A stretch of DNA of 36,485 bases from a virus. The first letter of the stretch is position 1; each line of letters begins with the position of its first letter. Positions 20,265 to 28,653 of the stretch are shown here, in pieces. Location of the stretch: positions 1-36,485 of IMG/VR virus record IMGVR_UViG_3300042922_000564. The stretch is one strand, 5' to 3'. The notes beneath the pieces were generated by a model. That model worked only from the letters and a program-made list of their open reading frames with translations. It did no database searches and was not told the origin of the DNA. A program made the translations under genes and the position numbers.

Positions 20265-21409
20265 CTTCCGGCCGGCCCCTGTTTGTTTGCCTTGATCTCA
20301 GCAGCCTTGGCCATCATTTCAGCAAATTCTTCATCCGATACAGCGCCTGCTTGGCCATCATCCTTGACGATTGGAATTTCCACTTTCCCGGAGTACCCGC
20401 TCCGGCTGCCGGAACCCTTATTCCCCCCGGCTGGCTTCTTCGATTCATTCATAGCAAGAACAAGCTTGGGGTATTGGGCGCGGAACGCTGCTGCACTCAG
20501 CACATTTCTGCGCCAAAACTCATGAGAGGGCAGCCATTCCATCAGGGCCCGGGTCAGCGTACGATCCGTATGCTTGTTTTGCTCCTCCATCAGCCGAATT
20601 TCATTCGCCCAGCTCTGCAGATTGGCTTTCGGGGCCAAATCTACTCCTTGTATAGCCGATAATTCGTCGATTTTAGCTTTCAGATACGTGGCCATCATCA
20701 AGAACGGGCTGTCGGGTTCGTAGAACGGCTTTTTCCGGCTCCCTTTTTCCGGAGGTTTTGGCGGCTTGCCCGGCTCAGAAACTTTTTCGGCGGTCGGCCC
20801 TGCATGCGGGTCTTGTTTTGGATTTTGATCTGCATTTGCCTTTGAATCTGATTTTGGATCTGCATCACCGTATATCTTTGAATCTTTATTTAGATCTAAA
20901 TCTTTATCTAAATCTAAATCTCTATCTATAGAGTGGACTTCTGTTGGAACTCCTTCGGATGTCCCTAGCTTGTCCGGTGGATGTCCGCCGGACTTCCCTT
21001 GGACATCCGAAAGACCTTCCTTCTTGAGTCGTTTCTTTTCCCGAGCTTCTGCCTTGCGTTCAGCGTCCTTTTTCTTGGACTCAATGATCTGTCCGCCAAT
21101 CTTGAACCAGTTGGCAATCTCGCGCCCTGACTGGGTTTCAACGACATAACCTGCATCTATCAACGCTCTCATAAGCACCCTGGGTTCACCTTCGAAGTTC
21201 ACTGCATCAGCGATATCAATATCATGGTACTTACTGATGTCTCCATCCTGCGCCCAATCCAGCACCCACCACCAGAGCATGTGTAACGTGCCTACTGCAG
21301 CGGGGGTGTTTAAGCCGGTCGAACGGCAAAAACGTCGTGTTATAGGGTCCCGATCTGTCGCTTGATAGCTCTTAATCCATAATCTTGGGGCTTCTGTTGA
21401 TTCACTCAA
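20261..21409 (-). CDS. Replication initiator (DnaD-like / winged-helix)
   Basis: A 382-residue protein. Residues 1 to about 115 look like the N-terminal winged-helix domain of phage replication initiators ('LWWWVLDWAQDGDISKYHD', 'LIDAGYVV'). The middle (about 130-225) is low complexity and charged with alternating Asp-Leu/Lys, encoded by AT-rich repeats. A C-terminal helical region (about 240-345) ends in a Gly/Ser-rich tail. Such proteins recruit host DnaC/DnaB-type helicase at the phage origin. The start is TTG 21409, with GGTGA upstream. The gene contains and is preceded by clustered GGATGTCC repeats, candidate binding sites. Confidence 0.78.
   Translation of the reverse strand: MSESTEAPRLWIKSYQATDRDPITRRFCRSTGLNTPAAVGTLHMLWWWVLDWAQDGDISKYHDIDIADAVNFEGEPRVLMRALIDAGYVVETQSGREIANWFKIGGQIIESKKKDAERKAEAREKKRLKKEGLSDVQGKSGGHPPDKLGTSEGVPTEVHSIDRDLDLDKDLDLNKDSKIYGDADPKSDSKANADQNPKQDPHAGPTAEKVSEPGKPPKPPEKGSRKKPFYEPDSPFLMMATYLKAKIDELSAIQGVDLAPKANLQSWANEIRLMEEQNKHTDRTLTRALMEWLPSHEFWRRNVLSAAAFRAQYPKLVLAMNESKKPAGGNKGSGSRSGYSGKVEIPIVKDDGQAGAVSDEEFAEMMAKAAEIKANKQGPAGR
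20880..21010. repeat. AT-rich repeats and GGATGTCC sites inside the initiator gene (candidate origin, part 1)
   Basis: AT-rich near-repeats of ATCTAAATCT (20880-20932) lie next to GGATGTCC-type sites: CGGATGTCC at 20956-20964, GGATGTCCG at 20979-20987, and GGACATCCG in inverse orientation at 21001-21009. Lambdoid and many Gram-positive phages carry iterons and an unwinding region inside the initiator gene. Origin function is inference. Confidence 0.5.
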
Positions 21410-22738: not shown

Positions 22739-22794
22739 TGTTTTTCCTCCTCATAGGTTTTTGGTCCTTGATGTCGAATATTGATAGTGGCCTC

Positions 22795-23098
22795 GTCGTA
22801 TCAAGGCAGAACCCTCCGGGCGAAAGGAGCGTGATGCGCCTTCTTTTGGTTTTTTTATTTCCCATCTGATTTTTCCATGCGCCTACAATCCGCAATGGAA
22901 GATCGAGCTTTAGACCATGTCACCCTGGCTATGATCGCCAACGTTACCCCTTCCACAGTGAAACGTTGGCTTGACGGAAAGTTTGAACCTCGACACAAGA
23001 ACCTACGGCGGCTTGCCGATGCTCTTGATGTGTCCGGGGATTACCTCTTAGGTAGAGCCTAAGTTAATACGGCCCGGAGGGTTCTGCCTTGATACGAC
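22795..23098. repeat. 304-bp cassette bounded by perfect 27-bp inverted repeats
   Basis: Bases 22795-22821 (beginning GTCGTATCAAGGCAGAA) are the exact reverse complement of 23072-23098. The repeat ends sharply on the outer side. The enclosed 250 bases contain one small plus-strand HTH gene, opposite to the surrounding early operon. No clear target duplication is seen. It could be an invertible segment, a small mobile cassette, or a long-range RNA stem. Function is unknown. Confidence 0.9.
22877..23062 (+). CDS. Small XRE-type HTH protein within the inverted-repeat cassette
   Basis: A 61-residue protein that is almost only an HTH: 'VTLAMIANVTPSTVKRWLDG' then 'RRLADALDVSGDYLLG', the classic Cro/CI-type pattern in which the last helix reads D.LLGR. 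It is on the plus strand inside the minus-strand early operon. The ATG at 22877 has no good ribosome site; a strong one (GAAAGGAGCGTG) serves an 11-codon leader ORF at 22834-22869, so translation may depend on re-initiation. It may regulate the early operon or the cassette itself. Confidence 0.75.
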   Translation: MRLQSAMEDRALDHVTLAMIANVTPSTVKRWLDGKFEPRHKNLRRLADALDVSGDYLLGRA

Positions 23099-23161
23099 TT
23101 CAGTTTTTCTCACCTCCTGCGAATAGATTGTATTTATGTGGTTATGATTGCTTGTAGAGGG

Positions 23162-23869: not shown

Positions 23870-24208
23870 ATGATGGATAACGAATTTGGTATCTCTGATA
23901 ATTTGAAGATTTTAAGAAAACGCTATGGCCTAACACAACAGGAACTGGCTGAAATTGCTGGAGTTACTAATAAAGCGGTATCCGCTTGGGAAAGAGGACA
24001 AAAAGAGCCTCGTATGGGTGCGATTGAGCGTATTTCAAAGCACTTCAATATCAAAAAGAGTAATTTAATTGAACATGGCGGAATGGATATTTTGGGTCCG
24101 GACCTTAGTAATGCAATTGCTCTCAGCTTTGGCAGTGAGGTTTTTTCAGAAAAAGAAATCGAAGACATCGTAAATTACATCAACTACGTGAAGGCTAAGC
24201 GTAATTAA
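23870..24208 (+). CDS. CI-like XRE repressor (lysogeny maintenance)
   Basis: A 112-residue protein: an N-terminal HTH at about residues 12-60 (LRKRYGLTQQELAEIAGVTN, then KAVSAWERG) and a short C-terminal helical part. It has no LexA-type Ser/Lys peptidase domain, so induction would not be by simple RecA-stimulated self-cleavage. It is divergent from Cro. ATG 23870 or 23873; GAGG lies about 12 bases upstream. Likely the phage immunity repressor, though a second XRE pair lies right of the att site. Confidence 0.8.
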   Translation: MMDNEFGISDNLKILRKRYGLTQQELAEIAGVTNKAVSAWERGQKEPRMGAIERISKHFNIKKSNLIEHGGMDILGPDLSNAIALSFGSEVFSEKEIEDIVNYINYVKAKRN

Positions 24209-25723: not shown

Positions 25724-25756
25724 ATGTAGTCTGTCCATGTCGAATAATTGGCAAAC

Positions 25757-26572: not shown

Positions 26573-26831
26573 GCAGCAGGCTGGAGCATTTATTGCTCCC
26601 CCGTGACACAAAAATGAACTAAGCACGAAATAAAACTTTAAGTCAATACTTTTTCATCGGTTGAATACATTTCTAATTAAACCCCTTTTAAGATAAAATG
26701 TATAGTTGAACTCGGATTCTAAAATAGGCTTTTCGACACCATAATTCGACAAACAAGTTATCGTTTTTATGGTATATTGTTTAATTAGCAAATAAAAAAA
26801 GCCACCTATAAGCCGGAGGCTTTTTTTATTA
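26573..26831. other. AT-rich intergenic region
   Basis: No gene is supported. It holds a small hairpin (GGAGCATTTATTGCTCC, about 26582-26598) after the XRE gene, with no T-run, and a bidirectional terminator at its right end. The rest is AT-rich with no recognised motif. Confidence 0.5.
26794..26827 (-). terminator. Terminator of the agr-like operon (possibly bidirectional)
   Basis: GCCTCC and GGTGGC arms (one mismatch) are flanked by seven A and seven T residues, so the structure ends in a T-run on either strand. It lies five bases after the LytTR stop codon. Confidence 0.75.
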
Positions 26832-28585: not shown

Positions 28586-28653
28586 TATACTCGTACAAGT
28601 ATATTGTCAATAAATATTTAATACTTGTACGAGTATAACAATTTCTATATAAT
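28586..28653 (+). promoter_or_regulatory. Promoter of the RHH gene with two inverted 17-bp operator sites
   Basis: TATACTCGTACAAGTAT (28586-28602) is the exact reverse complement of ATACTTGTACGAGTATA (28621-28637). Each is itself nearly palindromic. The right site contains the -35 (TTGTAC, 28625-28630) of a consensus promoter with 17-base spacer and TATAAT (28648-28653). They are likely operators of the ribbon-helix-helix protein, autoregulated and possibly reaching the agr promoter to the left. Confidence 0.78.

Follow-up and report, generated by a model that had tools for sequence, protein, structure and literature searches.

In phage lambda, the promoter pRE lies downstream of cro and reads back antisense to the early genes toward the repressor gene. 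In hok-type mRNAs, which encode a toxin, the 5' and 3' ends are joined by long-range pairing, and in IS10 and IS50 the terminal repeats protect against read-through. A small element in a phage genome resembles each of these systems in part. Like the lambda pRE/CII establishment transcript, it has a promoter-like site antisense to the early genes and directed toward a repressor gene, but its transcript would contain an HTH gene, shut in by a stem that joins the two ends, and no CII homologue was identified. Its full-length message would close by pairing of both ends, as in hok-type mRNAs; however, it codes for a DNA-binding protein, and the stem would be a perfect or near-perfect duplex of 27-32 bp. 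As in IS10/IS50, the inverted ends would pair in RNA beside a ribosome site, whereas the element has no transposase, carries a promoter-like site beside its arm, and has unrelated arms in its relatives. It also resembles invertible promoters and segments, being a short segment between perfect inverted repeats near regulatory genes, but all 24 known copies lie in one orientation and the arm sequence varies so long as pairing holds. Finally, it shares fold, family, and place among phage regulatory genes with the Cro/CI-type (HTH_3) regulators. Unlike them, its domain is stand-alone, has a Phe-rich N-terminus, and is encoded between pairing repeats, on the strand opposite the early operon. The element appears to combine three features that are rarely seen together: a repressor domain that stands alone, antisense transcription in the lysis-lysogeny region, and a stem joining both ends of the mRNA. 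No description of such an element was found in the literature searched, which lay mostly outside subscription journals. A Brevibacillus 'transposable region' was considered as a match and rejected, because the paper describes a different feature (PMC4909266).

The element was identified in a 36,485-nt stretch of viral DNA (the window; all of IMG/VR record IMGVR_UViG_3300042922_000564), in which it occurs once. Its left arm (22795-22821) and right arm (23072-23098) are 27 nt each and enclose 250 nt on the plus strand. The sequence-only reading had described them as perfect 27-bp inverted repeats, and they are indeed exact reverse complements. They form the longest perfect inverted pair that the repeat search found in the window; the runner-up was 17 nt. 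At 28586-28637, perfect inverted arms of 17 bp are separated by 18 nt. Just inside the left arm lies a strong Shine-Dalgarno-like (SD) stretch, AAAGGAGCGTGATG (22824-22835, plus strand), in which GTGAT is invariant in 20 aligned elements. It is followed on the same strand by the frame of a mini-regulator of the HTH_3 (Cro/CI) type (22835-23062), which has 75 codons and a stop, and no normal start codon beside the SD. The right arm begins 9 nt past the stop codon. The 61-residue XRE gene noted earlier is present within this frame as a 61-codon ORF (22877-23062), assigned to HTH_3 by Pfam. The 75-codon frame starts in a pyrimidine tract (22835-22873), which would be translated as a Phe-rich N-terminus, and a short out-of-frame ORF (ATG...TGA, 22833-22868, plus strand) overlaps it, with the HTH frame at +1 relative to this ORF. 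A strong ribosome-binding site (RBS) outside the right arm had also been reported. It is present on the minus strand at 23111-23118 as an orphan RBS of the early operon, with no usable start codon before the arm, and a similar orphan RBS adjoins the right arm in L001, L004, L008, L022, and L061. Rfam gave no match at gathering score in the window or in six loci.

The arms and HTH layout in the window belong to a family of elements. The family numbers 24 distinct elements at 22 loci; in each, inverted repeats flank a small HTH frame of the Cro/CI type. Of these, 21 elements (19 loci) share one common arm sequence and range in length from 255 to 309 nt; the remaining three (L154, L156, and L165) were found through the protein alone. 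The exact arm is present in four IMG/VR contigs, and looser patterns gave further loci. Among 394 genomes of the Paenibacillus family, 12 match the whole element or one arm, including one with a single arm only (G005). Where a host is named, it is a Paenibacillus species or, in one record, 'Bacillus sp.'. A nucleotide search with the element over phages and plasmids gave no match, and a protein search over phages returned only XRE genes of less than 60% identity. In each of two metagenomic phages, L004 (954-1628) and L008 (4409-5078), two diverged copies stand in tandem, both with matched arms of their own, and in one L004 copy the frame is back in register with the ATG. L020 (1988-2242) has lost about 49 nt of its HTH frame while keeping both arms, and the frame of L065 (1501-1798) stops early at a TGA.

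Comparison across the family shows that the pairing of the arms is conserved and their sequence is not. In an alignment of 20 elements (L094, found later, was left out), 97.8% of arm cells form a standard pair, and sliding the partners against each other as a control drops this value to 37-46%. Twelve of the 27 arm pairs have changed on both sides, which none of 500 shuffles matched. The decisive evidence comes from the three members found through the protein, whose arms of 32 nt (L154), 30 nt (L156), and 28 nt (L165) are mutually unrelated in sequence while the layout is unchanged; four unrelated arm sequences thus occur across the family. Both covariation and arm replacement point to the co-varying long-range stem that is characteristic of 5'-3' closed mRNAs. 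The sequence of the stem is replaceable, but its pairing is not. Predicted folds are dominated by the arm pairing, with a mean pair probability of 0.74-1.00. They did not reveal a conserved SD-sequestering hairpin, as the pairing partners of the SD differ between elements.

The repeats cannot be put down to chance. Among 560 phage DNA windows scanned as controls for inverted repeats of comparable span, the highest true null score was 15; one window scoring 28 proved to be the L008 element, a family member. Searches with the HTH profile only, a control independent of the arms, gave 45 locus rows, with several elements recurring between searches. Bracketing repeats score 20-28 in every one of the 36 rows that belong to the family, whereas the nine distant XRE rows score only 7-10. 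The arms also keep a close distance to the coding sequence. The GTGATG near the SD lies 7-10 nt from the left arm in all 21 elements, and the HTH stop codon and the right arm are separated by 6-14 nt in 20 elements, L020 with its internal deletion being the exception.

The enclosed frame is predicted to encode a regulator with a Cro/CI-type HTH_3 fold. The Pfam HTH_3 match of the window frame has an E-value of 1.9e-6, and PF01381 was over its cut-off of 23 bits in all three members scanned (window, 28.2; L001, 39.9; L009, 32.6). An AlphaFold2 model of the frame has a mean pLDDT of 82, with residues 1-8 below 50. The model and its PDB matches, which include the P22 c2 repressor as the top match (TMq 0.81) and the 434 Cro fold, agree with the five-helix repressor fold. 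Family-wide, the HTH frame alone is free of stops; an overlapping antisense gene was considered and rejected, as stops occur in the antisense frames of all elements, save one frame of L020.

Where does translation of this frame start? The reading frame is open upstream of the ATG at 22877, as far as 22835, and pairwise comparison of 21 elements gave pN/pS values of 0.31 and 0.38 before and after the invariant Met, and 0.11 in the pyrimidine tract. Purifying selection on the codons ahead of the ATG at 22877 makes this ATG an unlikely start. In the model, the first helix comprises residues 13-23, so that a start at Met21 would destroy it. The C residues of the tract fall 2, 9, and 94 times at HTH codon positions 1, 2, and 3 in the 21 elements, a bias indicating that the tract is conserved as a Phe-rich N-terminus. 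Most elements have no ATG, GTG, or TTG in the HTH frame near the RBS and have an in-frame TGA upstream. An in-frame ATG is found in L002, L059, L063, and the first copy of L004, and an in-frame GTG in L009 and L016. The absence of a standard start codon in most elements could mean weak or no translation. A programmed +1 frameshift from the GTGATG ORF was considered, since the GTGATG start sits +1 to the HTH frame in 18 of the 21 elements and the phase is constant in these, yet conservation of the tract follows the HTH frame from its first codons onward. Such a frameshift is not claimed; L154, L156, and L165 read GTG ATT in frame, overlapping the RBS.

A shared sequence extends about 25 bp past the left arm across differing contexts, and in the window it is a putative promoter or regulatory site beginning with TGTCGAATATTGATAGT and containing TGTCGAA (22772-22794, plus strand). 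TGTCGAA precedes the left arm by 19-28 nt in 10 of the 21 elements, including that of the window, and a -10-like box (TGCTAAAAT, TGCTAAACT, or GGTAAAAT) precedes it in 9. The left flank of the window element itself is a poor -10 match, and L009 and L094 (2 of the 21) have neither box nor TGTCGAA. The members with divergent arms have promoter-like boxes as well: TGATATAAT in L154, TGTTATAAT in L165, and CTGTAAAAT in L156. A published study gives TGTCGAA as the core of the Spo0A box (PMC3485338). Further TGTCGAA sites occur in the window at 25738 and 26730-26751, near the integrase end of the prophage. A literature search on 0A boxes in phages, hok, and IS10 found nothing usable.

The gene neighborhood places the element inside or beside the early operon. 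On its left side in the window is a minus-strand early operon. On its right side are two minus-strand HTH genes (HTH_17 and HTH_3), followed by a plus-strand HTH_3 gene in the CI position and a tyrosine integrase. The plus-strand gene (23870-24208; Pfam HTH_3, 2.5e-14) is a likely CI-type repressor on the same strand as the element, and a terminator scan of the window found no terminator-like site on the plus strand between the two. Neighbors were tabulated for the 19 loci and the three divergent loci (L156 being truncated). Relative to the early operon, the HTH frame is antisense. To its right, on the HTH strand, 20 of the 22 loci have a repressor-like and/or integrase-like gene; the contigs of the other two, L004 and L156, end before the repressor/integrase region. 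One or both of these genes were confirmed by Pfam in the window, L001, L002, L016, L022, L165, and L154, and the others were called by reading the sequences. The nearest left ORF, defined as the nearest one passing an RBS filter, is antisense to the HTH frame at every locus but L008, which has an antisense ORF in between. In orientation, the layout is that of pRE in 20 of the 22 loci, two contigs being too short; the promoter itself is putative. In L008, L094, and L154, the repressor-like gene is 3-5 kb away with other genes intervening. Thus, read-through to the repressor cannot be general.

The preferred model, to which we give about an even chance, is that of a lysis-lysogeny cassette in which a pRE-like antisense transcript encodes a mini-repressor and the paired ends of the mRNA limit its translation or stability. 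The promoter, next to the left arm, would read against the early lytic operon, toward the CI-type repressor and integrase genes. The transcript would start at or shortly before the left arm and encode a stand-alone Cro/CI-type DNA-binding domain of 60-75 residues. Once the right arm is transcribed, the first ~27-32 nt would anneal to the ~27-32 nt downstream of the stop codon, trapping the frame in a closed loop. The base of this stem would be 7-10 nt upstream of the GTGATG in the ribosome site. Translation would then most likely occur mainly on nascent transcripts and be shut once the ends zip, and the zipped RNA would be protected or cut by RNase III. The outcome would be a brief, self-limiting pulse of the mini-repressor, accompanied by RNA antisense to the early operon. 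The conserved pairing is the strongest part of this model; the strand of the stem, the missing start codon, and the presumed transcription are its weakest. If the stem acts as proposed, it constitutes a simple co-transcriptional timer that could be rebuilt in a laboratory reporter, and it suggests a previously unnoticed control of the choice between dormancy and attack in Paenibacillus-type phages. A more speculative version, which we regard as doubtful, is that of a control device in which the mRNA zips its own ends, only unfinished transcripts are translated, and the protein pulse measures promoter firing antisense to the lytic operon. In this version, the device would perhaps be switched by Spo0A via TGTCGAA in spore-formers, and the missing start codon would be a second, recoded step.

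Which transcript carries the stem? The arms would pair equally well in early-operon RNA, and wobble G-U pairs give mixed results. They are of the sense type in L001, L012, and the L002 clade, of the antisense type in L009, L010, L065, L094, and L165, and of both types in L154. There is no strand asymmetry among the elements, and the wobble pairs therefore do not decide between the transcripts. The stem could act in the early-operon mRNA as a processing, RNase III, or stability element of the lytic transcript, with the HTH frame as a passenger. The G-U pairs on that strand and the position of the element inside or beside the early operon in the tabulated loci are consistent with this idea. We consider it unlikely, as the HTH frame is under purifying selection, promoter-like boxes lie outside the left arm in most elements, and a passenger would not need arms that hug the SD and the stop codon. 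The HTH-sense transcript is favored as the carrier because the arms hug the frame and promoter-like boxes precede the left arm. A recombinase acting at the arms could instead flip the 250-bp segment and align the HTH gene with the early operon, which was the phase-variable switch put forward in the sequence-only reading. The perfect inverted arms would suit such a switch, the strong RBS outside the right arm would feed the inverted gene, and a lone arm at L028 in G005 (at about 1074; G005:C11:505074) stands in operon sense, with an RBS and an unrelated gene behind it; the early operon there is a related one that lacks the element. However, all 24 elements in the assembled loci face the same way with respect to the flanking operon and also, on contigs long enough to show it, with respect to the repressor and integrase genes. 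The window has no dedicated invertase beside the element, and the arm has no internal dyad by inspection. One arm sequence occurs beside both serine and tyrosine integrases and four unrelated arm sequences serve the same layout, which by this indirect test argues against arms matched to a recombinase. The same earlier reading held that a single orientation in deep data and in all relatives, together with compensatory changes in the arms, would point to an RNA stem, and the 24 elements come close to this pattern. An invertible switch is thus extremely improbable.

The element has been gained or lost and exchanged as a cassette, so that the earlier suggestion of a small inserted cassette holds in part. 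A conserved early gene has matches in 37 of the 394 genomes, and among 18 loci inspected around it, arms were found in 7 and none in 11; one of these loci (L117) belongs to G005, whose single arm falls outside the inspected stretch. Comparison of relatives thus revealed presence and absence among related operons, though no inverted copy. The element is placed between different genes in different phages, and its flanks and interior have different histories: the flanks of L002 and L003 score 0.91 and 0.83 against 0.73 for the interior, and the left flank of the window element and L001 scores 0.85 against 0.64 for the interior. These findings, and the tandem diverged copies, could indicate a non-autonomous, MITE-like cassette whose arms are terminal inverted repeats served by a transposase in trans. 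A transposon, however, fits the data poorly, and we hold this possibility to be very unlikely. The search of host genomes for a mobile repeat found one site per genome, with side-by-side pairs only in L004 and L008 and no several copies at unrelated sites. Inspection revealed no consistent target-site duplication, no transposase was found, and the common sequence past the left arm is at odds with precise ends. The fixed orientation and the unrelated arms around the same gene also argue against it. Alternatively, the arms could act at the DNA level as homology blocks for cassette exchange, homogenized by gene conversion, as the discordance between flanks and interiors might suggest. This is decidedly unlikely, since unrelated arms cannot serve as homology blocks between lineages and gene conversion would not explain why the arms keep so close to the frame; the interior of L059 looks mosaic by eye in the alignment, so that exchange is not confined to the arms. 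The pairing of arms of unrelated sequence argues against transposon ends, recombinase sites, and operators alike. Short perfect inverted repeats around a small gene are therefore not necessarily mobile ends or inversion sites.

A separate feature of the early region is a set of palindromic repeats rich in TGTCCC/GGGACA, which lie in or near an early gene at 20951-21014 of the window and in L118 and L121-L123 (TGTCCCCGGGGACA in the relatives), and which are perhaps replication-origin iterons.
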